From contig JADQBM010000113.1 of the NCBI GenBank assembly GCA_016278615.1, positions 1 to 58,323 on the forward strand: a stretch of 58,323 nucleotides of DNA, read 5' to 3'. The DNA is from Clostridia bacterium. GTDB taxonomy: Bacteria > Bacillota > Clostridia > Peptostreptococcales > JAAYPU01. The translations under genes and the position numbers were made by a program. Below are positions 32,677 through 56,086 of the stretch, in pieces (within the stretch, counting starts at the first letter, position 1; each line of letters begins with the position of its first letter). The notes under the pieces were generated by a model. The model was not told the DNA's origin, made no database searches, and saw only the letters and a list, made by a program, of their open reading frames with translations.

Positions 32677-34020
32677 TTGGTAAAGAAAGCAATTGAAAAG
32701 TTAAATACAAGAATAGATAGACTTATTAAAGATGGAGAATTTGAGAGGGATAAAAATAAAATCAAATACAAAAACAAACTTATGTTTTCATTTAATAATA
32801 AATATATATGGTATAACAATTGGAGATATTATCCAGATAGAATTGAATCAATTGTGAAAGACACTTTGAAAGTTACAATATTCATGGAAGGTAAAAACTT
32901 TGAGATACTTGGTAGCAATATTGTTAATCCGCCCAAATCAGCTAAAATGATTGCAAAAACATTTGAGAAACTTACGGGCATTGGAATTAATCATATTTCT
33001 ATTGGTGTACAAAAGGATAACTTGAGAGATAGTACATTAAAAATTACTAAAAAAACATATGATATGCTTAATGAAATTCTTAAAGAAGAAGGTAATGATA
33101 AGGCTGTTCGAATTAATAATAGAGTGTCTCCGATTATTAGGAATATATTTAATGTACATACTGAGCATGAAAACTCAAACAGAAATTACTCTTTATTACT
33201 GAAAGAAATAATTGAAAGTGGTAATTATACGCAAGAAGATGTAGTTGCATTTGCAGATAAAATTAGCAGTGGTTATAAAAATACGATTGTAATTGAAAAG
33301 CAGATTAAAAAGCAAACTCAGTGGTTGATTGATACTATGCAGTTAATTGTAGATGAGGCAGTTCTGGATAAATCGAAAGCTCAAGAATTAGGAAGTATCC
33401 ATTTTATGTACACTAAAAATAGTATTAGCGGACCAGAAGAACTGATGGAAAAAATTTTAACAGATTACGGTAGAAATATTTTTTTTGGATCTCCATTTTT
33501 GATAAATACAAATAAGTACGTTACAAGTAGAAAGCAAATATCGAACTCCCAATTTGATATTTTACTTGTAAATCAATTTAATGACCTGGAAGTAGTAGAA
33601 CTTAAAAGACCAGATAAACCAGTATTAAGTTATGATCCGAGTAGAGGTAAATTTTACGCTTCTAGAGACTTATCTATAGCTATATCTCAAGCCGAACGAT
33701 ATTTATCTGCGGTTATTAGAGATAATGATGACGAATATTTGATATGCGGAAAAAAAATTAGAGAATATTTGAATGATATTATTGGTGGTACTACTAGCAT
33801 TGAGATTGTTAGACCAACAGCATTGATAATTTTAGGAAGTCACCAGACTGTTACAGAACCTTATGATAAGCTAAACTCAAAAATAAGAGAAAAGGTTGCT
33901 GAAGAAGAATATATTCTAAATGGATTATTAGCATATAAAGAGTTGAAGAATGCTCTGAAAAATATTCAAATAATGACTTATTCAGAATTAATTGAAAATG
34001 CAAGATTAAGGTTGTCATAA
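32677..34020 (+). CDS. Shedu-type (SduA, DUF4263) defence nuclease (cassette 3)
   Basis: A 447-residue protein whose C-terminal ~180 residues show the Shedu/DUF4263 nuclease core: QFDILLVNQFNDLEVVELKRP supplies the D and ExK of a PD-(D/E)xK active site, followed by SQAERYLSAVIRD. The N-terminal ~250 residues are a variable region, as is usual in Shedu proteins. Single-gene Shedu systems protect against phages by DNA cleavage. The TTG at 32677 follows GGAGGAAGGAGG. It is the last gene of the cassette array. Confidence 0.8.
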   Translation: MVKKAIEKLNTRIDRLIKDGEFERDKNKIKYKNKLMFSFNNKYIWYNNWRYYPDRIESIVKDTLKVTIFMEGKNFEILGSNIVNPPKSAKMIAKTFEKLTGIGINHISIGVQKDNLRDSTLKITKKTYDMLNEILKEEGNDKAVRINNRVSPIIRNIFNVHTEHENSNRNYSLLLKEIIESGNYTQEDVVAFADKISSGYKNTIVIEKQIKKQTQWLIDTMQLIVDEAVLDKSKAQELGSIHFMYTKNSISGPEELMEKILTDYGRNIFFGSPFLINTNKYVTSRKQISNSQFDILLVNQFNDLEVVELKRPDKPVLSYDPSRGKFYASRDLSIAISQAERYLSAVIRDNDDEYLICGKKIREYLNDIIGGTTSIEIVRPTALIILGSHQTVTEPYDKLNSKIREKVAEEEYILNGLLAYKELKNALKNIQIMTYSELIENARLRLS

Positions 34021-40579: not shown

Positions 40580-40843
40580 ATGACCTTTGATGAAATTCTT
40601 AAAAAAATCCGCAAGGAACTTAATATAACTCAGGAACAGCTTGCCCGTGAGTTAAACGTCAGCTTTTCCACTCTAAATCGTTGGGAAAACAATCGAAACA
40701 CACCAAGCAAGCTTGCACGAATGAGGCTTGCTGAATACTGTACTAAGAAAGGCATTTCCTCGGATATTATCTCCGAGCTAGAGCGCGCTCAATATACTAT
40801 CAAAGGAACAGGAGTAATAAATTATGATGATAACAACCAGTAA
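40580..40843 (+). CDS. XRE-family regulator of the restriction-modification gene
   Basis: An 87-residue XRE/Cro helix-turn-helix protein: TQEQLARELNVSFSTLNRWE is a canonical HTH. It overlaps the following restriction-modification gene by 20 bases, so it is likely a controller protein timing restriction against methylation. TGGAGG precedes the ATG. Candidate operators lie at 40519-40546. Confidence 0.88.
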   Translation: MTFDEILKKIRKELNITQEQLARELNVSFSTLNRWENNRNTPSKLARMRLAEYCTKKGISSDIISELERAQYTIKGTGVINYDDNNQ

Positions 40844-43800
40844 CTTCAAAGAAGTACTAAAACATATTGGCTTCGAACAGCTTAAAGGTAAGGATAAAGA
40901 TATTTGGCTTAAGTCGTACCCGGCATGTGAACTTCGGGTTGACTTTAAAAGCAGCTTACTAATTTATCCTGAAGATAAAGGGTTTATCGTCAATGAGCGG
41001 CAGACCTGTAATTTTAGTGCGCTTGAAAACTTTGTTGTATTCGAGTGTGTCGACCGCTTATTTTCTAAAGGATATAAACCGGAACATATAGAGTTAGAAC
41101 CGAAGTGGAAACTCGGTCATGGTGCAAGCGGTGGCAGAGCCGATATTCTCGTCAAAGATAACAACGCTAATGCACTACTCATCATAGAGTGCAAGACTTG
41201 GGGCGGTGAATTTGAAGCTGAATGGAAGAACATGAACCTTAATGGCGGACAGCTATTTAGCTATGCCCAACAGATTAAAAGTACTCAATTTTTGTGTTTA
41301 TATACTGCAGGCTACAATGACGAAGTGACCTTATACAATAATCATATCATCACACTTAACGATAATAATGAGTATTTAAAAACCCTCAAAGAGCCTTTAG
41401 TGTTTGCAGATGCGACTGATGTTCAGACACTCTATAAGGCATGGTATGTCACCTATAATCATGAATATGAAACTACAGGGATATTTGAGGATACTCACCC
41501 AGCCTACGAAATCGGCAAGGCAAAACGCACCGCTTCTGATCTGCAAGACATCAATCATGATGATATACAGAAGAAGTATCATGGATTTGCGACAATTCTT
41601 CGCCAGCACAATGTATCAGGACGTGAAAACGCTTTTGATAAACTTGTTAATTTATTTCTCGCAAAAATAGTTGATGAGATGCAAAATCCGGAAGAATTGA
41701 TGTTTTCTTGGCGTGGTGTAGCATTCGATAACTATTTCGACCTTCAAGACCGCATACAGAGGCTTTACCGTGACGGAATGCAAAAATTCCTTAATGAAGA
41801 AGTAACTTACATTGATAACGAGGATATTAAAAAAGCGTTTCGGCTTTTCAAAAATGACCCAGATGCAACACGTGACCAGATAGAGGAATATTTTCGCCAA
41901 CTGAAATTTTACACTAACAACGACTTTGCGTTCCTCGATGTACATAACCAGCATCTTTTTTTACAAAATGCGGTTATATTGTTAAAAATCGTGCGGATGA
42001 TTCAAGATATTAAGCTAAAAACTGAGGAGCAGAATCAATTTCTCGGTGACTTGTTTGAAGGATTCCTCGACCAAGGTATAAAACAGAGCGAAGGGCAGTT
42101 TTTCACTCCTACACCAATTGTAAAGTTCCTTGTATCCTCGCTACCACTTAAGACGCTTATTGAAGATAGCGTTGAACCATTGAATGTTATTGACTATGCT
42201 TGCGGCGCAGGGCATTTTCTAAACGAGTATGCCACTCAAATACGCGATTTTGTATCTGGTGAAAATCTGTCTGATTATTATGGACGAATTGTTGGAATTG
42301 AGAAGGAGTACCGTCTTTCAAAAGTAGCGAAAGTATCAGCATTTATGTACGGACAAGACGAGATACAAATCGTATATGCTGATGCACTTGCTGAGAATCC
42401 AATTATTCATAATGGTACATATAATTTGCTTATTTCAAACCCGCCCTACAGCGTCAAAGGATTTCTTGAAACGCTCACACCTGAAGAACGTGCTACATTT
42501 GAGATATTCAAAGTAATTGACAGTAAAAGTATCTACTCAAACAACTCAATTGAGGTATTTTTTGTTGAGAGAGCAAAACAATTGCTTGCTCCAGGTGGTG
42601 TTGCGGCGATAATTCTTCCGTATTCGCTCCTATCCAACAGTGGAGCGGTGTACACCAAGGCTCGAGAGACAATTTTACAGTATTTTGATATCGTGGCAAT
42701 CACTGAGTTTGGAAGTGGAACGTTCGGCAAAACGGGTACGAATACTATCACATTATTTTTGCGCCGCAAAGAAGAAAACCCTGCCCTCGCAGAGCATTAC
42801 CACAACCGCGTTAATGCATGGTTCAATGGAGATTTTGAGAAGGACGGGATATTTGTTGATTCTGATTTGCTGGAGGCTTACTGTCAACACATTGGCTACG
42901 ACATAGATGACTATAAAGAATTGCTATGTTCTATACCCAGTGATGAGTTGCTTGATATGGATGAGTTCAAGACGTATCTCACTGCTTTTGATAATCTTGC
43001 AGAAACAAAAAAACGCAAAAAACAAAAAACGTTTAAAGCATTAAAAGCTGAAGAGCAACAAGCAGAATTAATGAAACGCTTTACATCATACATCCGTGAA
43101 ATAGAAAAGGACAAGTTGTATTATTTTTTGCTCGCGTATAGCAATCCCCAAAACGTAGTTGTTGTAAAATCACCCTCTGGCACAAATGAAAGTAAGCTTT
43201 TTCTTGGATATGAGTGGAGTACCCGTAAAGGTTCGGAGGGTATAAAATACCTTGGGACTGCTACAAGTGATGATAACGATGACGAGACGCTTTCTCGACT
43301 AAAGGGTATTAAGAGTATACGGACACCTCTATTCAACCCTTCTGACCTTGCAGACATAAGCAAAATCAACACAATTATACGAGAAAATTTTAATGGCATA
43401 ACTCAGGTTGAGAGCGAATTTGTGCAGCATTACCGTCTTGTTGATATGCTCGACTTTTCAGGTATCAAATTCGAAAAACAGATTTCTCTTTCAGCAGTAA
43501 AAATGAATGATATGGAGATAATTGAAAACTTTGATAGGTATCGGTTGAGTGATAAAAATCTATTTTCGCTCTCTATCGGAAAGCGTATTCTTAACACGCA
43601 GCTTGTACCTGACGGTGAGGTGCCCGTTTACAGCGCTAATGTATTCGAACCATTTGGGCGGATTAATGAACGACTAATAACAGACTTTAGCATTCCATCC
43701 ATACTATGGGGAGTTGATGGAGATTGGCAAGTAAAATATCTTCCTGCTAATCAAGAGTTTTATCCTACTGACCATTGCGGCGTGTTGCGTGTGTTAACGG

Positions 43801-44066
43801 ATAAGGTTCACCCACGTTGTTTAGCATGGGTATTGGACAATGCAGGTAAAAAGTACGGTTTCACGCGAACGCTCCGTGCCTCTATGCAAAGAATAGGACA
43901 ATTAATCGTGCAGTTACCTAAAATTGATATACAGCTCGAAATTGTTGCTGCTTGGGAAGTCGTAGATACAGAGTATGAAAGAACACGTATGAGCGATGAT
44001 GAGTATCGTCAGCGGATAGAGCAGTTGTTTAATGAGATTTCCGGCAAAGTGGAACGGCCAAAGTGA
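40824..44066 (+). CDS. One-polypeptide restriction-modification enzyme (N6-adenine MTase with nuclease and specificity regions)
   Basis: A 1080-residue type IIG/type I-like fusion. Residues ~100-125 hold a PD-(D/E)xK core (RADILVKD, then IIECK). Residues ~455-545 hold the gamma-class N6-adenine methyltransferase motifs: VIDYACGAGHF (motif I) and SNPPYSVKG (motif IV). The C-terminal ~250 residues look like a single target recognition domain of HsdS type (YRLSDKNLFSLSIGKRIL, then GWQVKYLP-like and DHCGVLRV). One chain would cleave and methylate. A decayed copy of part of the recognition domain follows the gene (44070-44300). Confidence 0.88.
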   Translation: MMITTSNFKEVLKHIGFEQLKGKDKDIWLKSYPACELRVDFKSSLLIYPEDKGFIVNERQTCNFSALENFVVFECVDRLFSKGYKPEHIELEPKWKLGHGASGGRADILVKDNNANALLIIECKTWGGEFEAEWKNMNLNGGQLFSYAQQIKSTQFLCLYTAGYNDEVTLYNNHIITLNDNNEYLKTLKEPLVFADATDVQTLYKAWYVTYNHEYETTGIFEDTHPAYEIGKAKRTASDLQDINHDDIQKKYHGFATILRQHNVSGRENAFDKLVNLFLAKIVDEMQNPEELMFSWRGVAFDNYFDLQDRIQRLYRDGMQKFLNEEVTYIDNEDIKKAFRLFKNDPDATRDQIEEYFRQLKFYTNNDFAFLDVHNQHLFLQNAVILLKIVRMIQDIKLKTEEQNQFLGDLFEGFLDQGIKQSEGQFFTPTPIVKFLVSSLPLKTLIEDSVEPLNVIDYACGAGHFLNEYATQIRDFVSGENLSDYYGRIVGIEKEYRLSKVAKVSAFMYGQDEIQIVYADALAENPIIHNGTYNLLISNPPYSVKGFLETLTPEERATFEIFKVIDSKSIYSNNSIEVFFVERAKQLLAPGGVAAIILPYSLLSNSGAVYTKARETILQYFDIVAITEFGSGTFGKTGTNTITLFLRRKEENPALAEHYHNRVNAWFNGDFEKDGIFVDSDLLEAYCQHIGYDIDDYKELLCSIPSDELLDMDEFKTYLTAFDNLAETKKRKKQKTFKALKAEEQQAELMKRFTSYIREIEKDKLYYFLLAYSNPQNVVVVKSPSGTNESKLFLGYEWSTRKGSEGIKYLGTATSDDNDDETLSRLKGIKSIRTPLFNPSDLADISKINTIIRENFNGITQVESEFVQHYRLVDMLDFSGIKFEKQISLSAVKMNDMEIIENFDRYRLSDKNLFSLSIGKRILNTQLVPDGEVPVYSANVFEPFGRINERLITDFSIPSILWGVDGDWQVKYLPANQEFYPTDHCGVLRVLTDKVHPRCLAWVLDNAGKKYGFTRTLRASMQRIGQLIVQLPKIDIQLEIVAAWEVVDTEYERTRMSDDEYRQRIEQLFNEISGKVERPK

Positions 44067-44069
44067 TAA

Positions 44070-44300
44070 GCGGTTTCGCTGTTTCAATCGGAAAACGCAT
44101 ACTTGATACTCAGCTTTTCCCTGATGGTGAGTTAGCGCAAACGTATTTAACCCGTTCGGTTATATTAACAAACGCCTTATTGCTGATTTCAATATCCATG
44201 CCGGTATAGAGAGTCAACAGATCATTGCGGACTTTTACGTGTACTGATCTATGATACAGTTGCCCCTATTGTAAAGAATAGCCTGACTCTCATCATTCTA
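44070..44300 (+). pseudogene. Decayed fragment of a second target recognition domain
   Basis: Translation in shifting frames gives SIGKRILDTQLFPDGEL, then GYINKRLIADFNI, then DHCGLLRVL. These align in order with SIGKRILNTQLVPDGEV, GRINERLITDFSI and DHCGVLRVL of the intact upstream gene. The fragment is frameshifted with internal deletions, so it is not expressed as a domain. It suggests past duplication or replacement of the specificity region. Confidence 0.75.
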
Positions 44301-44795
44301 AAAGTAGAGGTGTATATGTGCCTATAAAGAAAGACTGCACAAAAGGTTTTATCCTTCGGTGCTGTCTTTACTTTCGAGTCTCCGCTTGAAGAGAGTCGGT
44401 CAAAAATTAACTTGTTTTCGTAAATCCCTTAGTTGAACTCCCTTTCAAGCGGCATCTTTTTTGACCTTTCGAGGTATCCGTTGAACTATGATTCGGATTA
44501 ATTGTAAGAATCAAAAAAATATAAATGAGAAAACAAAAATCGATATGTCACTAACATATTATATATTCATAACAAAATAAAGAAGAATAGAGATAAAAAC
44601 TCTGATAATAATTGACCAAGGTAAAACCTATCGAAAAAGGAAGAAGCTAAGAGGCTTGTTTTTTTTATTTTATATTAAAGTTAGGCAACGCATACAAAAA
44701 TTATATATTCTTTTTTATATTGGCCTAAATTAATACAATAAAGCAACCATAAGCTCGGGAAATGCAGAATTATCTACAAATTTACCCTTGAATTA
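44301..44795 (+). other. Non-coding region with hairpin, pseudoknot-capable repeats and terminator
   Basis: No gene is seen. An 11-bp stem with one mismatch (AAAGACTGCAC with GTGCTGTCTTT, about 44329-44369) could terminate the upstream operon. CCGCTTGAA (44382-44390) pairs with TTCAAGCGG (44444-44452), and GGTCAAAAA (44398-44406) pairs with TTTTTGACC (44458-44466). The order is interleaved, as in an H-type pseudoknot. TTTCGAG...CCG...TTGAA occurs twice (from ~44372 and ~44467). AAGC/GCTT with eight T near 44646-44668 is a weak terminator. The remainder is AT-rich. Confidence 0.45.
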
Positions 44796-44804
44796 TGGTA
44801 TAAT
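44796..44804 (+). promoter_or_regulatory. Extended -10 promoter of the four-gene operon
   Basis: TGGTATAAT (44796-44804), in the context TTATGGTATAATAT, lies 80 bases before the first gene of the 44884-51372 operon. Confidence 0.55.
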
Positions 44805-44883
44805 ATAGCAAATTATTATTTTAAAGAGCGTTATTAATACAGGAGAAATAAAAAAGATAACTGGTCGCAGGGGGATAAAGATT

Positions 44884-45069
44884 ATGGATGAACAGACTAT
44901 TCAAGAAAAAATCAAAACAACCTTCATTAATGTAGTATCTGAATCCTTGAAATTTTCAGATGAGGAAGTTAACGAGATTGCGATAACAATATCATCGACT
45001 CAAAAGTCTGATAAGTTGGCGGAGAGTTTGTTAAAAAGTATTGGAGGTACTGCCGATGAAGATACTTAA
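44884..45069 (+). CDS. Small helical protein, first gene of the Rad50-like operon
   Basis: A 61-residue acidic, mostly helical protein that I do not recognise. It begins with ATG at 44884 after a GGGGGA site and overlaps the ATPase start by 14 bases, so translation is coupled. It may be a subunit or adaptor of the Rad50-like ATPase; nothing in its sequence identifies a catalytic role. Confidence 0.65.
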   Translation: MDEQTIQEKIKTTFINVVSESLKFSDEEVNEIAITISSTQKSDKLAESLLKSIGGTADEDT

Positions 45070-47485
45070 CCTACATATCCAAAAATTCCGCGGAATCGTG
45101 GATCTCAAATTAAATCTCAATGGAGAAAACGCCGTTATCTTTGGCCCAAATGGCGTGGGTAAAAGCGCTGTTGTTGATGCGGTGGATTTCCTTTTGCGTG
45201 GCGAAGTTTCGAGGTTAACCGGAGAAGGTACTGGCGACGTGTCAACAGCAAAGCACGGTCCCCACATTGGCAATCAACCTGAAGAAGCAAAAATTACGGC
45301 TACAATTCAGAGCATAACCGGTAAGACGTTTACTGTTGAACGTACAGTCGCTCAAAAAGACAGGGTAACAATCGATCCCGCGTACTCCTCCGATTTTAAC
45401 GATATGGTTGCCTATGCTCAAAGTGGGGCTCATTGCCTTGCAAGACGTGAATTGTTGCGCTATATATTAACGACTCCTGCAACGAGATCACAACAAATTC
45501 AAATGTTACTTGATATTGCTGATACAAAAACCGTTCGCGACGCATTTACAAAACTTAAAAAGACTGCGGCAAGTAACTTAAAAGATGCGATAGATTCGAT
45601 TAAACGTCATTCCACCGATTTTCGTACAAAGGTTAACGTAAACGCCGACGATCAGTTACTTGGAAATATAAATTCGCTACGAGCTGTCTTAGGAGGCTGT
45701 CCCCTTGCGTCTCTTGATGAAAGCTCTTTTACGAATGGCTTATTATATAGCGATACGAAGGAAAATACCGAGATAGCCAGTTGCATCCGCAACTTAGAAG
45801 AACTTGATAAGTATATACCAACGCTACGACCTGCACTTCAGGAAAAATTGCAAAATGTGCAGGATATTATACAAAAGGTTAAAAATGAATATACATCAAT
45901 TGAAAATATAAATTATATTTCGCTTATAAAATCAGGGCTTGCACTACTTGACGGTACAGGCCGGTGTCCGCTATGTTTGCATGAATGGGCGTCCGAAGCC
46001 GAATTGCGCCAAATATTACAGGAACGAAAAGAAAAGAGTGAATCTCTATCCACTCTTCTTGATACATATCAAAATTCAGTTACAACTTTGTTAAATGAAA
46101 TTTCAGCATACAGATCTAAAATCAATACGCTTCCTCAACAGCTAACAAAGTGGGACAATGGTTGCGCTGCTGAATTAGAAAATGAACTAAAGTCAATTGC
46201 AGCCGTATCTTTTCAAGATAATAATGCATATAAGAATTTCAGCAAAGTCCAGGAACTCATTATCGCTATCATAAATCAGAATTCGGATATACTTTTAGAC
46301 CTTATTCAAAAGCAACTGGCGGTTTTACGTCCTTTAATTGATGAAAACAGTAAAATAAAAAGCGATGCATGGCAGGCTCTTAATGCGGCGAATGAGTTAT
46401 TTACAAAAATTGGAGAGCTTAATAAGAAGTTGCCGACTATGAAGTTGGCGGCTGAGAAAGCTGCATTTTTGCTTGAAACGTATGACAATTCTCAAGCAAT
46501 TGTACTGAATGAATTATTTGCTTCTATAAGTGACCGATTCACAGAATATTATAAAGCGATGCATATTGACGATGAGAAGGATTTCTCGGCTGTATTGAAT
46601 AATGATGGCGCAGCCGTTAATATGAGCGTTGATTTTTATGGGCAAGGTCAATTCCCGCCAATGGCGTTTCACAGCGAGGGACATCAGGACAGTATGGGCA
46701 TTGCCTTGTTTTTTGCTCTGATGGAAAAGCTGACAACATCAGAATCAGGATTGGTAGTTTTGGACGACGTCGTGATGTCTGTAGATATTGAGCACAGAAA
46801 GAACTTCTGCAGACTGCTAAAAAGGTTTTTCCCTGAACGGCAATTTATTATTACTACGCATGATACGGTATGGGCAAAAAATCTCGTTAATGAAGGCGTT
46901 GTTGAACGCAAAAACAGTATTCAATTTTTGTATTGGAATGTTACGGAAGGCCCCGTAATGGTAGTTGGACAAGATGTATGGAATACGAGTCGCGCGAAGG
47001 CTGATATTGATCTTCACGGAGCATCCGCTTTCTTCAGGAGAGAAATGGAATGCTTCTTTGAAAACATCTGTGATAAATTGCACGCACGCGTTCGTTATAA
47101 TAACGTTCATAAATGGGATTACGGTCAATATATGAACGCAGCTTATAATGAACTACAAAATCTGATAAAAAAAGCGGAGAAGCAAGCACGAGATTTTAAG
47201 AACACAGAGGCGCTTGATCAACTCGGCTCTCTTTCCAACACATTAAAGACTCAAATCGCAGCAGTTACGGCAGACAACTGGGTAACAAATGCGCTTATAC
47301 ACTACAATCCAGCTTATGAAATATCAAAAACAGAGTTTTTAGCAGCGGTGGACGCATTGGAACAATTCTGCCATAGCTTTGAATGTTCTAAATGTAACGC
47401 CACAATAAAAGCTACATATACCGGTGAGAACCCGATTGCGTTAATGTGCAAATGCGGTAGTTATGCATATCCTCTCAAACAATAA
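45056..47485 (+). CDS. Rad50/SMC-like ABC ATPase with zinc hook and C-terminal zinc ribbon
   Basis: An 809-residue ABC-type ATPase. It has an N-terminal LHIQKFRGI strand and Walker A (FGPNGVGKSAVVD), then coiled-coil arms on either side of a Rad50-type hook (CPLC, residue ~302). The C-lobe has a signature-like segment (SEGHQDSMGIALF), Walker B with D-loop (LVVLDDVVMSVD) and H-loop (IITTHD). The last ~40 residues form a zinc ribbon (CSKC...CKCG). The ATG at 45056 follows GGAGG. Such ATPases sense or process DNA ends and act in several defence systems. Here it is operonic with an HD-GHKL protein and a PD-(D/E)xK protein. Confidence 0.85.
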   Translation: MKILNLHIQKFRGIVDLKLNLNGENAVIFGPNGVGKSAVVDAVDFLLRGEVSRLTGEGTGDVSTAKHGPHIGNQPEEAKITATIQSITGKTFTVERTVAQKDRVTIDPAYSSDFNDMVAYAQSGAHCLARRELLRYILTTPATRSQQIQMLLDIADTKTVRDAFTKLKKTAASNLKDAIDSIKRHSTDFRTKVNVNADDQLLGNINSLRAVLGGCPLASLDESSFTNGLLYSDTKENTEIASCIRNLEELDKYIPTLRPALQEKLQNVQDIIQKVKNEYTSIENINYISLIKSGLALLDGTGRCPLCLHEWASEAELRQILQERKEKSESLSTLLDTYQNSVTTLLNEISAYRSKINTLPQQLTKWDNGCAAELENELKSIAAVSFQDNNAYKNFSKVQELIIAIINQNSDILLDLIQKQLAVLRPLIDENSKIKSDAWQALNAANELFTKIGELNKKLPTMKLAAEKAAFLLETYDNSQAIVLNELFASISDRFTEYYKAMHIDDEKDFSAVLNNDGAAVNMSVDFYGQGQFPPMAFHSEGHQDSMGIALFFALMEKLTTSESGLVVLDDVVMSVDIEHRKNFCRLLKRFFPERQFIITTHDTVWAKNLVNEGVVERKNSIQFLYWNVTEGPVMVVGQDVWNTSRAKADIDLHGASAFFRREMECFFENICDKLHARVRYNNVHKWDYGQYMNAAYNELQNLIKKAEKQARDFKNTEALDQLGSLSNTLKTQIAAVTADNWVTNALIHYNPAYEISKTEFLAAVDALEQFCHSFECSKCNATIKATYTGENPIALMCKCGSYAYPLKQ

Positions 47486-47531
47486 AATCAGAGGATGTTA
47501 CCAAATCAAATGAAACTAGAAGGAGCCTGGC

Positions 47532-50000
47532 ATGGATATAAATGATTCGAAACTATATAAAATCCTTGTTGAAAGGAATAGCGACTTCCTACCGAATATA
47601 AAAAAGGTATTTGATTATGTAAAAGACTTATTGCCTTTAGTGACAAAAGTCTTTTCTGACTATACTCAGCATGATGTAGACCATTCAATTATGATAACAA
47701 ATTATATTTATGAAATTATAGATGATGTTGCTCAGATGAATGATTTGGAAATATCAATGATAATATATTCCGCTTTACTACATGATATTGGAATGGTCGT
47801 CACCGGTAACGAAATCGAAGGAATCAGGCAGGATGACCCTAATATAATTGAATGTAAATATTCGGTTGTTTTACAGGCTTTAAAGGATGATAAGCTGGCA
47901 TTGCAGGAATGTATTAGACCTATCCATGCTAAAAGATCAGCTTATCATATTGCAAATATGGACAAAGAGCAAAGTTGGTTTGTACTTCCCGACAGCACAA
48001 ATAATAGTATTGCTGAAGATATACAGAAAATTTGCCAATCGCATAATGAGTCATTTCAATGGTTAAAAGCTGAACTGAAGCAAGATGATTGTAGAGGTAA
48101 TTATTCATATAATGCACAGTATATCGCATTGCTTTTAAGGCTGGCTGACTTATTGGATATTGATGAAAACAGAACCCCCATGCACCTTTACCAGTTAATC
48201 AATCCCGAAGGAATCGGCGATTTAGAATGGCGTCAACATTTTGAAATTAAAAATGCTCAAAAAATATATATCAATAAGACTACTAAACAAAAAGTTATTA
48301 GACTATATGGTGAAAGCAAAGATCCAAAAGTACATAGAAAATTATTAAAATACATTGATTATGTTAACCAAGAATTGCTGGATTCTATTAATTTATCTGA
48401 TACATTCCAGAATAAAAAGTATGCAATCATATTCAAACCAAATATTGAAAACATGATTCAGACAAAAACATTTACATTTTCTGATTTCAGGCTTGATTTG
48501 GATTATAATGCCGTCACTAAACTCTTAATGGGCGAGCATATATATGGTGATAAAAAGTATGGGTTAAGGGAACTCGTACAAAATTCAATAGACGCTTGCA
48601 TGTTGATGAGAGAAATATCGCAAAACCATAAGGATTATCAATATAGAAAATATGAGCCTTATATTAATGTGATCTTTAATAGGGATAAAAAAGAGGTAAT
48701 GATTACAGACAATGGCGTTGGCATGTCTTTGGATATACTTAAGAAGTATTTCTTAAATGTCGGCGTTTCTTATTATTCTTCAAATGAATATAAGTATAAA
48801 GGGTATGCTTATGATCCTATCGGTAATTATGGGATAGGTTTTCTTTCATGCTTTATGTTATCAAGTGATGTGAATATAGAATCAAAACGGTATGACGACC
48901 AAAAACTCAACAAAATCGAACTTGAGCGAAACAGCGAATACATTTGCTTGACACAAGAGCAATCCACCAGAATGCAAGGAACAGATATAATATTAGATTT
49001 AGATCAGTTCACTGAAGTATTTCCCGATGTTCAGAAAACAAAAAAATTTTTAGAGTTTAATTTTGTTGATTGCTGCATCCCGATAAAGATACTGAATTAT
49101 GAAAATGGCAATACATCAGAAACTGCTTGCGAATTAATCGGTTTAAAAGATAATTCGGATTCAATAGCAAGGTTAGATAAATACCTGAATAATGTCGAGG
49201 GCTATATTGAACTGAATTGCAGAACAATCGGCTGCATAGAATCTTTGCAGGATTTTGAAGGCGATACGAGCTATGTATATTTAAATGATAAAGAAATCCT
49301 CGTTGAAGAATCTGAAGCTAAAGTCGATATAAACGATTTCGTCCATGACGGACAAGTAGCCTATCTTAAAATCCCTATTATTTCAAGCGATGTTTCAGAT
49401 AGGTTTAATAATTATTTGGATGTTCTTGATGATTTTGACGATGCAATAAACAAGTTGAATGATGTTGAATTTATAGAAATATTTTGCACTAATGAAAATG
49501 AGCTTATAGAGGACACGTTTAATAACTCTGGTGAACAAATTATCGGAGAATATGACTTCGATGATTTTTGTAGAGATCACGGTCATTCCTCCGACGCGCC
49601 AACACGTACCCAAAGAATCAAGTGTTTCGCAATCAATGATAATATTAATAAAGTGCTGCTATATGAAAAATCAAAAGGCTTTGGGAAATACTCTTGGGAA
49701 AGAACAGATAAGATATTTATTAAAAATGTGCTTATACCTGAATTTTCTATTTCAATTCCCTGTATTATTAACGGAATAAGTTTGAAGTCTGCGCTTTTTA
49801 ATATTAAGAACAAAGCGATCGTACCCAATGTTTCCAGGAATAACGTGCAAAAGAACGATGCTGAAAGGTATTCATATGCTATCGGTAAAGCTATTCATCT
49901 ATGGGTTTTGGAGAATGTAAAACTTGATCCGAGCGAAAAAAATCTTTTGAATAAATTTATAAGTATATGTTATCGAGATAGCAATGAATACTTAGCATAA
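47532..50000 (+). CDS. HD domain plus GHKL (Hsp90-like) ATPase fusion
   Basis: An 822-residue protein. An HD-type region in residues ~50-220 (TQHDVDHS, ALLHDIGMV) resembles metal-dependent phosphohydrolases. A GHKL ATPase follows at ~330-450 with N-box (LRELVQNSIDACML), G1 (DNGVGMS) and a glycine-rich lid (GNYGIGFLS), as in Hsp90/HtpG and MutL. The C-terminal ~350 residues are unrecognised. AAGGAG precedes the ATG. A fusion of HD and GHKL domains points to a regulated phosphohydrolase or nucleotide signalling device. The operon context suggests defence. Confidence 0.82.
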   Translation: MDINDSKLYKILVERNSDFLPNIKKVFDYVKDLLPLVTKVFSDYTQHDVDHSIMITNYIYEIIDDVAQMNDLEISMIIYSALLHDIGMVVTGNEIEGIRQDDPNIIECKYSVVLQALKDDKLALQECIRPIHAKRSAYHIANMDKEQSWFVLPDSTNNSIAEDIQKICQSHNESFQWLKAELKQDDCRGNYSYNAQYIALLLRLADLLDIDENRTPMHLYQLINPEGIGDLEWRQHFEIKNAQKIYINKTTKQKVIRLYGESKDPKVHRKLLKYIDYVNQELLDSINLSDTFQNKKYAIIFKPNIENMIQTKTFTFSDFRLDLDYNAVTKLLMGEHIYGDKKYGLRELVQNSIDACMLMREISQNHKDYQYRKYEPYINVIFNRDKKEVMITDNGVGMSLDILKKYFLNVGVSYYSSNEYKYKGYAYDPIGNYGIGFLSCFMLSSDVNIESKRYDDQKLNKIELERNSEYICLTQEQSTRMQGTDIILDLDQFTEVFPDVQKTKKFLEFNFVDCCIPIKILNYENGNTSETACELIGLKDNSDSIARLDKYLNNVEGYIELNCRTIGCIESLQDFEGDTSYVYLNDKEILVEESEAKVDINDFVHDGQVAYLKIPIISSDVSDRFNNYLDVLDDFDDAINKLNDVEFIEIFCTNENELIEDTFNNSGEQIIGEYDFDDFCRDHGHSSDAPTRTQRIKCFAINDNINKVLLYEKSKGFGKYSWERTDKIFIKNVLIPEFSISIPCIINGISLKSALFNIKNKAIVPNVSRNNVQKNDAERYSYAIGKAIHLWVLENVKLDPSEKNLLNKFISICYRDSNEYLA

Positions 50001-50013
50001 GGGAGATAAGTTC

Positions 50014-51372
50014 ATGTTTAACAATAACAGACACCTTAATATATTTGAGCATTACACACAAAAAGGGTCGTTGCCAATTGAAAATAATGTGTCCAGAGGG
50101 CTGGCAATACTATTAAATCAAAACAGCTTAGTCCTTGACAGATTAATTGATTATATAAATGCCAAATGCTCGGACAAAAAATCAACCTGCTCTGTTCCGA
50201 AGCCTCAAAAGCTAAGCGACAAGGAGATCGGGATTCAACAGCAGATAACAAAAATAGTACAAAGCTATCCCAACCCTCAGAATATTATCGGCATGACATT
50301 GACTACATCATCTCCCATCAGCATGGTCGAGAATAAGTACGATGACAATAACGGTCTGATAACAGATATCGTGATAAGCTGCAAGGATACGCTTGTTATT
50401 ATTGAGGTTAAAAGGAATGCTAATGATGCCAGGCTCCAATTAAAACAGCAGGTGAAAAGCATCGCTGCAGAGGTTGTCAGACAAGGAGGAAATCTTCCGG
50501 ATACCGTACTGCTTGATGGTACATGGGAGGATATAATTTCAATCCTGCAGGATGTTTATAATATTTCTGGGAGCAATGAGGACAGCGTTTTAGGACATTA
50601 CCTTAACCATTTAGAAAATCATTATCAGCAGTGGTTCCCCATATCGTTACTGACCGACATTCTGATTGATCGCGAAAATGAGTCAGGCATTGATAAACGG
50701 ATATTAAGTCTCATCAAAAATTGTTGTGAAAATGAAAGCGATGCGGAGAAATACTCCGGCAGGTACATAATTCCGCTAGATTATGACTTTTGTACCGAAG
50801 CCCAGCTCAGCATGGATTATGAATTAAAGAGATTGATGATCACAATTTGGAGTGGTGATACAAAATGGCAAGGCTATTGCCTGTTCAATAAAACGACAAA
50901 CGACTTATCATGGGTTTATGAAAATTCATTGATTATAGATGGGCTGAAGCTTGATTTATTGACAGAGCCTTATTTACGGCTTGCTCATTTTCAATCCACT
51001 ATCATCGCTGAGTATTTTGATAAAGCATATTACCAAAAGCACTTTGGAGTTAGGAACGATAAGTGTATAGACTTGTATAACGATATTACGAGGGACTGGA
51101 AAAAGCCTGATTGGCCTGAATTAAAGGCCTTATTAAGGAATAAGTATAAAGGCTTGATAGACATGAGCAGCTTTGATACTGATTTTCAGAGTAATTTTGA
51201 AAACTCAAACAGGAGCTATGCGCATGTTTCATTTGGTTATGAAACGACTGTTTATCTGCCAATGGACGTAATAAGCAAATATGAAAAAAACAATTCTACA
51301 TTAAGAAAAAATGATAAATTGGCCGGTTTCATATCTAAGGTTATTGACCAGTTGACGAAGAAAATAGTGTAG
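50014..51372 (+). CDS. PD-(D/E)xK nuclease-like protein, last gene of the operon
   Basis: A 452-residue protein with a central nuclease-like core: NGLITDIVISCKD followed by LVIIEVKRN gives the D and ExK of the PD-(D/E)xK superfamily (residues ~113-135). The remainder is unrecognised. AGGGAG precedes the ATG, 13 bases after the HD-GHKL stop. It is the most likely effector of the operon. The terminator at 51427-51451 closes the unit. Confidence 0.78.
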   Translation: MFNNNRHLNIFEHYTQKGSLPIENNVSRGLAILLNQNSLVLDRLIDYINAKCSDKKSTCSVPKPQKLSDKEIGIQQQITKIVQSYPNPQNIIGMTLTTSSPISMVENKYDDNNGLITDIVISCKDTLVIIEVKRNANDARLQLKQQVKSIAAEVVRQGGNLPDTVLLDGTWEDIISILQDVYNISGSNEDSVLGHYLNHLENHYQQWFPISLLTDILIDRENESGIDKRILSLIKNCCENESDAEKYSGRYIIPLDYDFCTEAQLSMDYELKRLMITIWSGDTKWQGYCLFNKTTNDLSWVYENSLIIDGLKLDLLTEPYLRLAHFQSTIIAEYFDKAYYQKHFGVRNDKCIDLYNDITRDWKKPDWPELKALLRNKYKGLIDMSSFDTDFQSNFENSNRSYAHVSFGYETTVYLPMDVISKYEKNNSTLRKNDKLAGFISKVIDQLTKKIV

Positions 51373-51426
51373 TAATTGGGAATTAATCCAAAACGCATCA
51401 GACTCCTAAGCCAAAAAAAGTGAAAA

Positions 51427-51450
51427 AATTAGGACCTAATTTTTTTTATA
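51427..51450 (+). terminator. Intrinsic terminator after the nuclease gene
   Basis: AAATTA and TAATTT pair around GGACC (the outer palindrome is AAATTAGG/CCTAATTT), followed by eight T. Confidence 0.6.
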
Positions 51451-51479
51451 TTGACACACGAACGTATGTTCTGTAAAAT
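51451..51479 (+). promoter_or_regulatory. Promoter with a LexA (SOS) box in its spacer
   Basis: TTGACA (51451-51456) and TAAAAT (51474-51479) are exactly 17 bases apart. The spacer holds CGAACGTATGTTCT (51459-51472), which fits the Gram-positive LexA box CGAAC-N4-GTTCG except at the last base. This arrangement predicts LexA repression and DNA-damage induction of the genes that follow. Confidence 0.75.
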
Positions 51480-51604
51480 ATATACAAGCCTTTCTTTTGG
51501 TCCTAATATTGGTAGCGGATAGCATAAAGTTTAAATTATAGCGGAATATGTTGGAATACAATGATTTAAGAAACAAATTATGATATGAAATGAAGGTGAG
51601 GGTA

Positions 51605-52171
51605 TTGGGGAATAGTTTAAGTACGTTAGAGAGATTAGAAAGAATATATAATTTTGAAAATGAGAATGACGATAAGATTTACCATAATTCAAAACTTATA
51701 TTAAAGTTGTATTCCAAAGTTTCATGGCGAATGAGTAATTGCATTAGGGAAATGAATGAGGAGTGTTATTTAGCTAATAAAAATAGTTTATTTGATGTTG
51801 TGGATTCGCTTATTGATGTTGATCCAAGGGTAGATAAGATTAGGATTGAAAGTCGGCTAAGAAGTATTGAGGACAGCAAAAGCATATTGGTGTTAATTGA
51901 TCAAGCTTTGCTGCTACTCAAAAGTTATCCAAAGGATGGAGAGCGGTATTTTGAAATTCTCAAGAGGTCTTATATGGATCTCAATAAATATAATGAGAAT
52001 GAGATCTTGGAGTATCTAAATGTTTCAAGAACTACTTTCTATCGAGACAAGAAAAAAGCTACTACATTACTTGGCATAATTCTCTGGGGATTTGTGATTC
52101 CCGATGTGAAAAAACAGGAAATTGAAAAGAAAAATATGGTGGAACAAAATCGATACTTTTTTGGTACATAA
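51605..52171 (+). CDS. HTH regulator (sigma-like/ArpU-like), likely SOS-controlled
   Basis: A 188-residue protein with a long helical N-terminal region and a C-terminal helix-turn-helix (ENEILEYLNVSRTTFYRDKKKA). The layout recalls small sigma-factor-like or ArpU-type regulators in mobile elements. I prefer the TTG at 51605 because AAGGTGAGG lies just upstream; the in-frame ATG at 51590 lacks a ribosome binding site. It is the first gene after the LexA-box promoter and would be made after DNA damage, perhaps to turn on excision or transfer. Confidence 0.68.
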   Translation: MGNSLSTLERLERIYNFENENDDKIYHNSKLILKLYSKVSWRMSNCIREMNEECYLANKNSLFDVVDSLIDVDPRVDKIRIESRLRSIEDSKSILVLIDQALLLLKSYPKDGERYFEILKRSYMDLNKYNENEILEYLNVSRTTFYRDKKKATTLLGIILWGFVIPDVKKQEIEKKNMVEQNRYFFGT

Positions 52172-52306
52172 TTAATACTTGATTAGGACAAAGAAAGAAC
52201 TGAAAAGCTACTGACTGTGTATTTTGCGCCTGTTATAATTGCTATACTGGATAAAATAGGAGTTATTTTAAGCCCTGAAACGTTTATAACGTGGAGGGGT
52301 TTTTTA

Positions 52307-52333
52307 ATGCCTATTTTTCTTAAAAAATTATAA
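52307..52333 (+). CDS. Putative 8-residue leader peptide (MPIFLKKL)
   Basis: ATG at 52307 follows GGAGGGG (52293-52299) at 7 bases, and the ORF ends at TAA 52331-52333. The terminator stem starts 10 bases later, so a ribosome on the ORF would cover or approach the terminator's left arm. It resembles leader peptides of attenuation systems, but expression is unproven. Confidence 0.45.
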   Translation: MPIFLKKL

Positions 52334-52343
52334 CACCGACCCG

Positions 52344-52382
52344 AAAAGGAGTCACACGAGAAAATCGTGTGGCTCCTTTTTT
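52344..52382 (+). terminator. Strong intrinsic terminator in the leader
   Basis: A stem of 16 bp (52344-52359 with 52365-52380) has one G-U pair and the loop GAAAA. The stem ends inside a run of six T (52377-52382). Confidence 0.85.
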
Positions 52383-52447
52383 CGTTTCCGGAAAAAAGGG
52401 GTAAGGGATGCATAGCTATACGGAACATCATATTAGAAGTCCTTAGA

Positions 52448-52486
52448 CCTCTGTTTTTAAATGCTTAACAAATTTAAAAACGGAGG
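52448..52486 (+). promoter_or_regulatory. Hairpin sequestering the ribosome binding site of the sigma-like gene
   Basis: CCTCTGTTTTTAAAT (52448-52462) pairs over 15 bp, one of them G-U, with the right arm 52472-52486. That arm contains the CGGAGG ribosome binding site of the ATG at 52494. Translation should need melting or alternative folding. Confidence 0.65.
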
Positions 52487-52493
52487 ATATGAG

Positions 52494-52910
52494 ATGAAAG
52501 TTAAAATTAATTATGAAGGTAAAGAGATTTTGGTAGATGAGGCAGTTAAAAGCTGCTTAGATGAATTAAAGCGGCAAGAAGAGGTTTTGGATCGCAAGAA
52601 CAGAAGACATGAAATTCTTTGGGATTCGATACTTCTTGGAGGGATAGATGCAGTTAAGGAATCGATTTTGTCCGGTGATATAGTTGAAGATCAAGTGATT
52701 AATGAGATGTATATGAAAGCGCTGGAACAAATTATTGAAGGCTTAGAAGAACTTGATCGTGTAATTATTATTGACCGTTATATGAATAGCTTGAAATACA
52801 AGGATTTGTCCAGTAAATATAATATGCCAATTACATCCGTCCAATACCGTATAGAGAGAGCTTTATCAGATATGAGTATAAAGTTTGACGCTATTTTGAA
52901 AAAACTTTAA
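52494..52910 (+). CDS. Sigma-70 region 4-like regulator
   Basis: A 138-residue protein whose C-terminal half matches sigma-70 region 4: LDRVIIIDRYMNSLKYKDLSSKY, then NMPITSVQYRIERAL as the recognition HTH. Small proteins of this kind occur near the integrase or recombinase of many Firmicutes ICEs and regulate excision genes. The ATG at 52494 uses GGAGG at 52482-52486; the in-frame ATG at 52461 lies in the loop of the hairpin and lacks a site. A terminator follows at 52924. Confidence 0.82.
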   Translation: MKVKINYEGKEILVDEAVKSCLDELKRQEEVLDRKNRRHEILWDSILLGGIDAVKESILSGDIVEDQVINEMYMKALEQIIEGLEELDRVIIIDRYMNSLKYKDLSSKYNMPITSVQYRIERALSDMSIKFDAILKKL

Positions 52911-52923
52911 TAATTTTCCGTAA

Positions 52924-53008
52924 AAACACGTCCTGACTGACCTAAAGGGTGAAGGGGTCATTAACTCCTTCATATGAACTTTGAAAAATGTCAGGACGTG
53001 TTTGTTTT
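52924..53008 (+). terminator. Large branched terminator after the sigma-like gene
   Basis: AAACACGTCCTGAC (52924-52937) pairs perfectly over 14 bp with GTCAGGACGTGTTT (52990-53003), enclosing smaller stems (GACC/GGTC, GAAGG/CCTTC). TGTTTTG follows. Confidence 0.8.
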
Positions 53009-53029
53009 GTCCATAAAGTTAATATTTCA

Positions 53030-53290
53030 AGTACGTTACTCTTGTAAGCAGCAAAACTGCTAGCGGCACGGCAGATACGCCATGACCTACCTGAATGGTA
53101 GCAAGCGATTCTTATCGGGTCTTAATTGCATATGGTTATGTAAACCGCCAGAATCTGCAAGGGAGATAATGATACTTCTGCTTAGTCCTAACTATCGTAT
53201 GGAGAGTAGCTCGCTCGGTGGAGGGAGAGGTGAGAAACCTATGATATCTGCTAACCACAGATAGCTTGAAATATTACCCTGGATTGGGGT
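53030..53290 (+). ncRNA. GC-richer structured non-coding region, candidate RNA of unknown class
   Basis: The stretch is visibly GC-richer than its surroundings and carries several short stems: GCAG/CTGC, CTACC/GGTAG, CGAT/ATCG and TATCTG/CAGATA (the last within 53240-53265). A 60-codon frame (53082-53264) overlaps it but has no ribosome binding site and an unprotein-like composition. It sits between the sigma-like gene and the recombinase. It does not match the riboswitch or group II intron features I know. The rest to 53400 is AT-rich with nothing further seen. Confidence 0.45.
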
Positions 53291-53401
53291 CTGTACATAT
53301 GAATAAATTTATACCTTGTATTGTTTTAATGAAACTCATGAAAAAGTAATGAATAAATAATTTATCACATATATATGTAGAAATATAAAGGGGTGGGGTA
53401 T

Positions 53402-53515
53402 TTGGTTAAATTAATTCTGGAAGAAACATTTAAAACAGATAGTGATAAGGAAAGAACGAAAGTTTTAGAGGAAGAGTTTATAAATATAATTTTAAAATTA
53501 GAAGGTGAACTTTAA
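53402..53515 (+). CDS. 37-residue charged peptide upstream of the recombinase
   Basis: A TTG-started ORF (53402) following AGGGGTGGGG, encoding a highly charged helical peptide with no membrane segment. Small genes at this position are sometimes recombination directionality or regulatory factors, but nothing in the sequence proves this. A hairpin with an internal promoter separates it from the recombinase. Confidence 0.5.
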   Translation: MVKLILEETFKTDSDKERTKVLEEEFINIILKLEGEL

Positions 53516-53525
53516 AAAATATAAC

Positions 53526-53581
53526 TATAACTAGCTGCTGTGGTATAATAATTACAGGTTAAGCAGGTAGTTATATTTTTT
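53526..53581 (+). promoter_or_regulatory. Recombinase promoter inside the loop of a terminator-like hairpin
   Basis: TATAACTAGCTGCT (53526-53539) pairs with AGCAGGTAGTTATA (53562-53575) with one mismatch in 14, followed by six T (53576-53581). The loop contains the extended -10 element TGGTATAAT (53541-53549). Read-through transcripts from upstream would form the terminator, while transcripts starting at this promoter would lack its left arm. Confidence 0.6.
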
Positions 53582-53597
53582 AGGAGGTATAACTGCC

Positions 53598-55158
53598 GTG
53601 GATAAAGTTGCAATTTACTGCAGATTAAGTGACGAGGATAGAAACAAATCTAATAAATTTGATGAAAGTGAAAGTATTCAAAATCAAAAAAATATTTTAA
53701 CGAAGTATGCAATTGAACAAGGTTGGAATATTTATAATATTTATTCTGATGATGATTTTTCAGGACTTGATTCAGAGAGACCTGAATTTAATCGTATGAT
53801 TAAAGATGCCCAAATGGGTAGAATTAATATTATTTTAGCTAAAACCCAAGCCAGATTTACGAGAGATATGGAGCTCGTTGAAAAATATCTTCATAAAGAT
53901 TTTGTTGAATGGGGAATAAGGTTTGTTGGTTTTGCTGACTTTGTTGATACCAATCAAAAGGGTAATAAAAAGGCAAGGCAAATCAATGGATTAGTAAATG
54001 AATGGTATTGTGAAGATATAAGTGCAAGTATTAGAACTGTCTTTAATTCCAAAAGAGAAGATGGGGATTTCATAGGTTCTTTTGCGACATATGGTTATAA
54101 AAAAGATCCTGATAATAAACATAAATTAATTATTGATGAAGATGCAGCAGAAGTTGTTAAACTAATATTTGATTTGTATTTGCAAGGCAATGGAACGCAA
54201 CATATAGCTTATATACTTAATGAGAGAGGGATACCGAATCCTTCAAAGTATAAGCAATTAAATGGAGAAAAATTTGTTAATTCCTCACAGAAAGATAGTT
54301 ATGGATTATGGAATAAAACGACTGTAAAACGTATGCTGACAAATGAAATGTATTTAGGCCATATGCAGCAGCGGAAAAGAGAAAAGGTAAGCTATAAGAC
54401 TAAAAAAATAAGAAGTATACCAAAAGAACAATGGATTGTTGTGAAAAATACTCATGAGCCTATTATTGACGAAAAAACTTTTTTTACAGTTCAAAATAGA
54501 TTAAGAAGCAGAGCCAGAAGTACCGGTACAGGGAACACATATATTTGCCACCAAATTGAAATGCATGGATTGCGGAGCTACAATGAGCCGTGTTAAAGCA
54601 AGCAATGGATATGCTTATTTAAGGTGTCAAACGTATGCTAGATTTGCAAATAAGAATCTCTGCAGTTCACATTCAATCAGATTTGATATGCTTGAAGAGT
54701 TTGTCTTAGAAAATTTAAAAAGACATTTTGAAAATTTGGATGAAGATAATATTTCATACGAATTAGAATTTAAAGAAAACAACCAAAAAAAGAACACTCT
54801 ACTTGAAAAGCAATTAAAACAAATAGAAAAGCAGATAGATGAAATAGATAATACAGTTCGAAGTCTATATTTGGATAAAGTAAAAGAGATCATTCAGGAA
54901 TCTCAATTTATAGAACTTAATGAACAGTTTATTAATGAAAAAGAAGATCTTATTAAGAAACAAAAAAATATACAAGTACAAATTAATACAACTACAGATA
55001 AAGATAAAATATTTAAAAACTGGAAGGAAATAACCAGTAAATATAAAAATATTGATGCTCTAAATCATGTAATAGTTACAGAATTAATTAATAATATAGA
55101 AATTGGAGAAAAAAATCAAAAAGGCGAACAAAAAATCAAAATTCATTGGCTGTTCTAG
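53598..55158 (+). pseudogene. Large serine recombinase of the ICE, interrupted by a frameshift
   Basis: A large serine recombinase (TnpX/TndX class). The N-terminal catalytic domain has the nucleophile context AIYCRLSDED and the ARFTRDMELVEKYL arginine helix. The recombinase domain (SFATYGYKKDPDN, WNKTTVKRMLTNEMYLG) follows, then a zinc ribbon (CMDCGATMS...) and a C-terminal coiled coil. The frame breaks near 54533-54545. Reading one base further gives NTxIFATKLKCMDCG, the usual link into the zinc ribbon, so a single-base insertion (or a sequencing error) explains it. The GTG at 53598 follows AGGAGGT at 9 bases. If the frameshift is real, the ICE could not excise unaided. Confidence 0.85.
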
Positions 55159-55249: not shown

Positions 55250-55276
55250 TAGTTGACCACTTGACATGTTGTGGAC
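55250..55276 (+). other. Right attachment junction (attR) of the ICE
   Basis: The host reading frame becomes recognisable at CATGTTGTGGACCC (55265-55278, encoding HVVDP); a stop (TGA, 55262-55264) lies directly upstream in that frame. CCAC/GTGG lie symmetrically around the site (55256-55259 and 55271-55274), as is common at serine recombinase sites. The exact core dinucleotide cannot be fixed without the left junction. Confidence 0.7.
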
Positions 55277-56086
55277 CCAAAAAACCCAGGTGCCGTGGAT
55301 ATGATTGTTAATTTGGGGGATTATTGGAATGAGGAAGGGATTCGGGTTAATAAGGTAGACATACTTAGATGTAATAGAAGAATAAAATTCAATTTTGAAA
55401 AGGCCTATAATTATTTTGGAGCTGCCAGAAAGATGTATGATAATCTGAATTCTATTTATGAAAATGCATTGGATGAGGCTGAAATTCATAAAGAAGCTGC
55501 TAAATTGGTAAATATAGAATTATCTCATAAAGAGCTTTCTAAAAGGATGGGAAAATCAAGTAAATTTTTTGCAAGCGCTTTAACGCCACAAGGAAATGTG
55601 AATTATATTGACAGTCTTATTGAGGGATATGAAAAGATTTATGTTATAAAAGGTCCTGTTGGTATTGGAGGCGGGAAAATATTTGACATTATAAAGGAAA
55701 GTGCCAGATACAGAGGATTTGATGTGGAAAGTTATTACTGTCCAATGGTTCCAGATACTAAAATTGAGCATTTATTAATACCAGATCTGAAAATAGCTTT
55801 TGTATCCTCCAATTACTATCATAAATTAAAAGTGGACGCTTATGAAATGATTAATCTTAATGATTACATACATTGGGATGGGATCTGTAAGTATAAAGAA
55901 ATGATTAATGACAGTCAAAGGCTTATGGAAGAGCTTATTAATAAAGGAATTGAATGTATTCAGGGTGCAAAAAAAATGCACGATGACCTTGAAACCAATT
56001 ATATTCCAAATATGAATTTTGAAGCTGTGGAGAATTGTCGTAAAAGTATTGTTGAAAAATACTTGCTAAAAAATGATACAAAATAA
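55265..56086 (+). pseudogene. Host ATPase gene (PRK06851-like), 3' part, split by the ICE
   Basis: The first residues (HVVDPKNPGAVD, then IVNLGDYWNEEGI) match the middle of PRK06851-type ATPases, in which a P-loop half precedes a segment PHxVDPKNPGAVD. The N-terminal half, with the main Walker A motif, is missing and should lie at the left end of the ICE. The remaining ~270 residues include a second, degenerate P-loop (IKGPVGIGGGKIFDI). A GTG at 55271 could start a truncated product, but no ribosome binding site is present. A terminator follows at 56096. Confidence 0.82.

Follow-up and report, generated by a model that had tools for sequence, protein, structure and literature searches.

A predicted host LexA operator in the promoter of a regulator gene on a clostridial integrative and conjugative element

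Integrative and conjugative elements (ICEs) that are induced by the SOS response are already known, and a 2016 review by Fornelos reportedly deals with LexA and mobile elements. The locus described here, from a Clostridia bacterium (assembly GCA_016278615.1), raises the question of whether such an element can be silenced by the LexA protein of its host, through an operator placed directly in the promoter of its regulator gene. The window, by which we mean the whole stretch of DNA that was analyzed (58,323 nucleotides), is one entire contig (C55) of a 3.5-Mb draft genome. The original prediction held that a LexA box fills the spacer of a near-consensus promoter, that repression would be tight, and that DNA damage would thereby be linked to a helix-turn-helix regulator gene, here termed REG, and possibly to the excision genes downstream. 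The promoter and its box have the sequence and positions that were claimed for them, and the features at the start of the regulatory module are as follows.

51451–51479, + strand: REG promoter, TTGACA (51451–51456), 17 bp, TAAAAT (51474–51479), by direct reading; the host dinB promoter shares its layout
51459–51472, no strand assigned: predicted LexA operator CGAACGTATGTTCT filling the promoter spacer, core GAAC-N4-GTTC at 51460–51471, from the host-box matrix score and relatives
51605–52171, + strand: REG, 188 aa when read from TTG 51605, in a frame open from ATG 51590, a phrog_1558 relative with a C-terminal sigma-region-4-like helix-turn-helix

Each considered alone, the promoter parts and the loose operator patterns are weak evidence. 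The TTGACA-17-TAAAAT pair is the top promoter-like site of the region 51300–53700, with 11 of 12 consensus bases, in a region that holds 12 such sites against 10.5 in shuffles. A loose LexA pattern allowing up to two mismatches matched the window seven times against 5.2 expected, and CGAACNNNNGTTC occurred six times in the 3.5-Mb genome against seven and ten for its reversed-pattern control, so that neither was enriched. The window box has T as its last base, and the strict form CGAACRNRYGTTYG therefore had no exact match genome-wide.

The host's own SOS genes provide a second comparison. According to the available text of two reports, GAAC-N4-GTTC is the consensus of Bacillus/Clostridium-type LexA operators (PMC4234289, PMC4551915); the window box contains this palindrome and the host SOS genes carry the same motif. 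The genome has one clear lexA, whose product combines a LexA DNA-binding domain with an S24 protease domain, and CGAACATATGTTTA lies upstream of its start. Genome-wide, GAACRNRYGTTC was found at 10 distinct places, compared with two forward and one reverse for the reversed control. These places include recA, dinB (DNA polymerase IV), yneA (two boxes), a repair-linked radical-SAM gene, the window regulator and a paralog on contig C99, the second copy of the regulator in this genome, which likewise has its box upstream; three others lie within a gene (C26), before a small gene (C33) and before a homing-endonuclease-like frame. The radical-SAM gene has two SOS-type boxes. On a scoring matrix built from seven host SOS boxes (recA, dinB, two each from yneA and the radical-SAM gene, and lexA), the window box scores 19.5 bits, the highest in the window, where the runner-up site reaches 11.9. 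The host lexA box (16.1) and the C99 paralog box (16.4) both score below it on the same matrix. Furthermore, the host dinB promoter, TTGATA-17-TAAAAT, has its box inside the spacer in the layout of the window promoter.

The claim of a LexA-type box in the REG promoter is thus borne out by its agreement with the host LexA boxes and by its conservation upstream of REG relatives (below), and we are confident in predicting that the 14-bp box is a genuine LexA operator. It overlaps the promoter such that binding would block polymerase. Damage induction of REG is predicted as likely, and the 'tight' repression originally envisaged is a plausible prediction.

As a whole, the explanation that we consider best, and judge likely, is that a host LexA operator silences REG, that damage releases it and that REG then acts in trans. 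LexA would occupy the promoter spacer at 51451–51479, block RNA polymerase and keep REG silent; upon DNA damage, RecA filaments would trigger LexA self-cleavage and REG would be turned on. The REG product, which is sigma-region-4-like, would then raise the expression of other element genes in trans, probably together with the product of a second gene, SIG (52494). For this element and the relatives nearest to it, the lock would be host LexA in place of the ImmR/ImmA-type pair that several other relatives possess.

The DNA that carries this promoter is an ICE by content, given its genes for ParA, ParB, a relaxase, a coupling protein, TrbL, a VirB4-like ATPase and others, and as a site-specific insertion it interrupts a host gene.

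1–55270, + strand: right-hand part of the ICE (Pfam), with ParA/ParB, relaxase, coupling protein, TrbL, VirB4-like ATPase, defence cargo, regulatory module and recombinase
55271–56086, + strand: remainder of a host gene for a PRK06851-like ATPase (model positions 96–358 of 363), the right edge of the element lying just before it

The relaxase, coupling protein and VirB4-like ATPase score over the cut-offs of PF03432, PF02534 and P-loop_TraG/AAA_10, and a NikA/MobC-like protein, a type II/IV secretion ATPase and an M23 peptidase are also encoded. The left edge of the element is on contig C53, where the N-terminal part of the interrupted PRK06851-like gene is found (C53:4781–5068), and the insertion junctions have no common word of at least six bases beyond a T/A run. 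A second element, in genome G056 (contig C33), ends adjoining a homologous PRK06851-like gene. Defence-like cargo was noted at 40580–51372, 17746–20031 and 32677–34020, including a type IIG restriction enzyme and LmuB-like, NsnA-like, SduA-like DUF4263 and HD-CE/HSP90-like ATPase proteins.

What the promoter could control depends on the module that follows REG.

52211–52239, + strand: promoter-like CTGACT-17-TATAAT with TG before the second hexamer, a possible SIG promoter; 10 of 12 consensus bases, the regional count of such sites being no higher than chance
52343–52381, + strand: strong terminator hairpin between REG and SIG (55-nt stretch, −28.4 kcal/mol, z −6.7)
52494–52910, + strand: SIG, a second regulator-like gene, ATG after GGAGG (open frame from 52461); sigma-70 region 4, PF08281, 1.2e-07, over cut-off
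52924–53003, + strand: downstream of SIG, a long and stable hairpin with a T-rich tail behind it (106-nt stretch, −37.6 kcal/mol, z −5.6)
53166–53244, + strand: pemK RNA motif RF02913 (55.8 bits, gathering score 34.8)
53598–54596, + strand: first part of a large serine recombinase, Resolvase and Recombinase domains
54556–55158, + strand: remainder of the recombinase in a different frame, zinc ribbon and DUF4368
L018 9719–9822, L020 8345–8447, L059 7909–8012, L060 8617–8719 and L064 9079–9181: dinG RNA (RF03082) in relatives

All 20 loci that were folded have a hairpin with a T tail in the gap between REG and SIG, and in no locus did more than one of 20 shuffles give a stronger one; an Rfam search of the gap gave no RNA. 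On account of this strong terminator, control through a single transcript of REG and the excision genes was dropped. The suggested direct control of the downstream excision genes is not supported, given this terminator, the missing helicase gene and the split recombinase frame, and any link from promoter to excision would have to work in trans or through polymerase reading past the terminator.

In many relatives, SIG is followed by dinG RNA and a DinG-like helicase gene and then by an integrase, and the window has no such helicase gene but a pemK RNA, lying where relatives have the dinG RNA and helicase gene, and a large serine recombinase. Five relatives have the dinG RNA ahead of their DinG-like gene within this module, and the RNA may belong to a mobile-element module and not to a host dinG. 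The overlap of the two recombinase frames at 54556–54596 marks either a pseudogene or an assembly error, and because the recombinase is split, SOS-driven excision is not to be assumed in this copy. For intact relatives, which do exist, we put the predicted effect on excision or transfer at roughly an even chance. When a relative's recombinase was compared with that of the window at the protein level, the first half aligned with 27% identity and the second half did not; a local tblastn search of the window with the relative's recombinase gave no match.

These defects raise the alternative of a LexA operator that is genuine but a relic in this copy, with an element that cannot excise and a promoter that yields one protein only. 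Both the split recombinase and the lack in the window of the DinG-like helicase gene common in relatives would fit such decay. However, box and promoter are intact and near-optimal, a split frame in a draft assembly may be an error, and the helicase gene is missing from other loci of the family too. We regard a relic as unlikely, although it is the strongest of the alternatives.

On the preferred reading, release from LexA would let REG act on other element genes. Translation from the TTG at 51605, as originally placed, is the likelier start because a ribosome site (aaggtgagg) precedes it and the product then begins like that of the second copy in the same genome. REG matches phrog_1558, a family of unknown function, at 1.3e-16, and a phage transcriptional activator family more weakly. 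Like the ArpU, RinA and DUF1492 phage late regulators, which are small helical proteins of phages and related elements, it has a sigma-region-4-like C-terminal domain; however, REG scores below the curated cut-offs of those families (20.5 bits against 21.5 for DUF1492, PF07374, and 17.3 against 43.1 for the ArpU family, TIGR01637), and phrog_1558 is the better match. A structural model derived from six sequences has a mean pLDDT of 72, and its C-terminal part resembles sigma region 4 with good overlap (Z up to 7.7). Foldseek returned no PDB or viral match at E ≤ 0.001, and the sole match of note in a PDB sequence search was Listeria Lin0861 (E 0.0024). The natural reading is that REG is a transcription factor, either activator or antiterminator, and the proposed role of activator comes from its fold and family resemblance.

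As an antiterminator of the lambda N, Q or AlpA sort, REG would, once LexA is released, carry polymerase through its own terminator into the module. The hairpin after REG in 20 of 20 loci and the position of REG as first gene would suit this, as would weak fold matches to the loading complexes of AlpA (Z 6.6) and Q21 (Z 6.4), although such values are commonplace for the tool and sigma region 4 equals or exceeds them. A parallel exists in the alpR/alpA system of Pseudomonas aeruginosa, where, in the available parts of the reports, a damage-cleaved repressor frees a small regulator that acts positively and has its helix-turn-helix at the C-terminus (PMC7969949, PMC9371919); AlpR is, however, an element-like protein of its own and not LexA, and AlpA is a proven antiterminator, which for REG is a guess. 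Furthermore, genes after such terminators often have promoters of their own, a promoter-like site precedes SIG, and the PDB sequence search gave no AlpA or Q match. We consider an antiterminator role for REG doubtful.

Whether a LexA-controlled REG is a wider trait was assessed in relatives of the regulator. A search of 60 relatives yielded matches in four genomes, and an alignment-based search of 393 genomes of the order yielded 38 places in 30 genomes; three further loci came from viral contigs, and 32 of 391 genomes of the class had a match. The main set of 38 loci, which includes the window and its paralog, consists of 36 of the 38 order places and two viral loci with upstream sequence. 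L057, which is without upstream sequence, and a second fragment in L079 were excluded from the counts, L015–L017 were substituted by their duplicates L061, L060 and L059, and the class set excludes the short fragments L053 and L055 as well as G449:C17, G567 and G677, for which there was no fetched locus.

An exact GAAC-N4-GTTC box lies within 300 bases upstream in 17 of the 38 loci and an N5 version in four, and every other spacing from 0 to 12 was found in none of the 38. In 200 rounds of dinucleotide shuffling, the mean count was 0.11 and the maximum 2, compared with the 17 observed. The remaining 21 of these nearer loci are without an exact N4 box. The box becomes less frequent across the wider class sample (4 of 29), again with no other spacing. 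Twelve of 21 box sites lie within a −35/−10 pair that agrees with the consensus at no fewer than 10 of its 12 bases, compared with 4% of positions drawn at random from these upstream regions. Because the box has been inherited together with the gene, the 17 box loci do not amount to 17 independent events. On a tree built from 61 regulator proteins, which omits nine loci that are truncated or without upstream sequence, the box label needs seven changes, compared with a mean of 15.7 for shuffled labels; the box is therefore a clustered, inherited and sometimes lost trait.

In 25 of 30 genomes examined, lexA has GAAC-N4-GTTY upstream. Two genomes, G263 and G350, have elements that carry the box and a lexA of their own without such a box in the stretch examined, which counts against the LexA reading for those two. 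Relatives of the regulator also occur in four phage and three plasmid records; five of these seven were examined, and the 350 bases ahead of the match contain no exact N4 box in any of the five. On the viral contig L056 (389–6922), the same box, regulator and SIG stand ahead of phage replication genes, namely those for a DUF2800 nuclease, an Enc34-like ssDNA-binding protein and DNA polymerase A. The arrangement is therefore not confined to conjugative elements, and prophages may use the same LexA switch. For the relatives with the same lock, the conserved box suggests that their elements, too, would wake upon host DNA damage.

Several relatives have genes for an XRE repressor and an M78 protease divergent from the regulator, and the box could accordingly be read as the operator of an element-borne ImmR-like repressor, its likeness to LexA sites resulting from shared GAAC half sites. 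Four ImmR-type loci do have ATGAAC-N5-GTTCAT, with similar half sites, in the promoter spacer. However, their N4 box is a separate site 31 bases downstream, and ImmR-type promoters without an N4 box have, by eye, other and unlike repeats; the N4 box is therefore not simply the ImmR operator. The N4 box was found in 8 of 20 loci with an ImmR-type neighbor and persists in 13 of 47 without an adjacent one, the window included. This candidate was put aside on the separate N5 repeats and this persistence; given also the agreement of the box with host SOS boxes and the lack of an accompanying ImmA-type gene, we hold it to be very unlikely. The window encodes no ImmA-type M78 protease, the only ImmA-family protein of the genome is on C99, away from this element, and neither the window element nor its nearest relatives have an ImmR/ImmA-type pair adjoining the regulator. 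The gap that separates contig C53 from the window might conceal a repressor gene; a second ImmA was not found genome-wide. Because no ImmR/ImmA-type pair is detectable for the element, host LexA seems to fill that job. One further pair of loci, and only this one, looks like a second exchange of locks: in L065 the box is present and the stretch covered contains no ImmR-type gene, whereas its sister in the tree, L023, carries ImmR/ImmA but lacks the box.

The unenriched loose patterns in the window and the unenriched CGAACNNNNGTTC in the genome might speak for a chance likeness within AT-rich intergenic DNA, but this is rejected as next to impossible by the spacing control and shuffles, the match to host SOS boxes and the recurrence of the box in the promoters of relatives. 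At the other extreme, the loci can be drawn together as one widespread clostridial switch, common to conjugative elements and phages, in which host LexA gates a sigma-4-like antiterminator or activator, ImmR/ImmA and LexA locks are swapped in both directions at one promoter, and REG carries polymerase through the conserved terminator; so broad a scheme is, in our judgment, improbable.

Known systems place the LexA-silenced REG promoter in context. Coliphage 186 Tum is a LexA-controlled antirepressor. The Gifsy prophage antirepressors are comparable in that LexA represses a small phage regulator that starts induction, as the consulted portion of the report describes (PMC3121763); Gifsy and Tum antirepressors, however, inactivate a phage repressor, whereas REG resembles a positive transcription factor, and our analysis revealed no repressor that it might disarm. 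ICEBs1 of Bacillus subtilis and TnSmu1 of Streptococcus mutans are damage-switched ICEs under ImmR/ImmA control, in the sections available to us (PMC11841131, PMC10233336), and resemble those relatives that carry an XRE repressor and an M78-type protease. They differ from the window element in that their own repressor is cut by their own protease, whereas here a host LexA box is predicted in the element promoter and no ImmA is nearby. LexA-silenced mobile elements are likewise known, for example GIL01, a Bacillus thuringiensis phage that, in the accessible text, depends on host LexA and GAAC-N4-GTTC boxes for silence (PMC4551915). In GIL01, however, the boxes are downstream of the start site and the phage protein gp7 is required, whereas the element described here is conjugative and has one box in the −35/−10 spacer and no known co-repressor.

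A literature search by titles and the beginnings of abstracts, with subscription papers mostly outside its coverage, revealed no recognized precedent for a LexA operator in the promoter of an ICE activator. A predicted host LexA box directly in an ICE regulator promoter, in place of ImmR/ImmA, thus appears to be new within that search. If true, antibiotics and other DNA-damaging agents would wake these elements through the host SOS response with no element-borne sensor, and the promoter would show how a mobile element trades its own repressor-protease lock for that of its host. The timing with which large clostridial conjugative elements move, including this one with its several defence genes, would also become open to test, and the phrog_1558 protein family would be given a role.

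Three minor observations were made on other loci. The hairpin after SIG recurs with a similar loop (CCCCCTC...CGGCTTA...GAGGGGG) in L059, L060, L061, L018, L020 and L067, a likeness greater than a plain terminator requires. At L127 (300), by eye, an exact SOS-type box lies 20-odd bases before a LAGLIDADG-homing-endonuclease-like frame that has no Pfam match. Finally, in three genomes of one family (L165, L166 and L167), box and regulator stand, outside any obvious conjugative element, beside genes that by eye look XRE-type and M78-like, with a sigma-factor-like gene next in L165 and L167.
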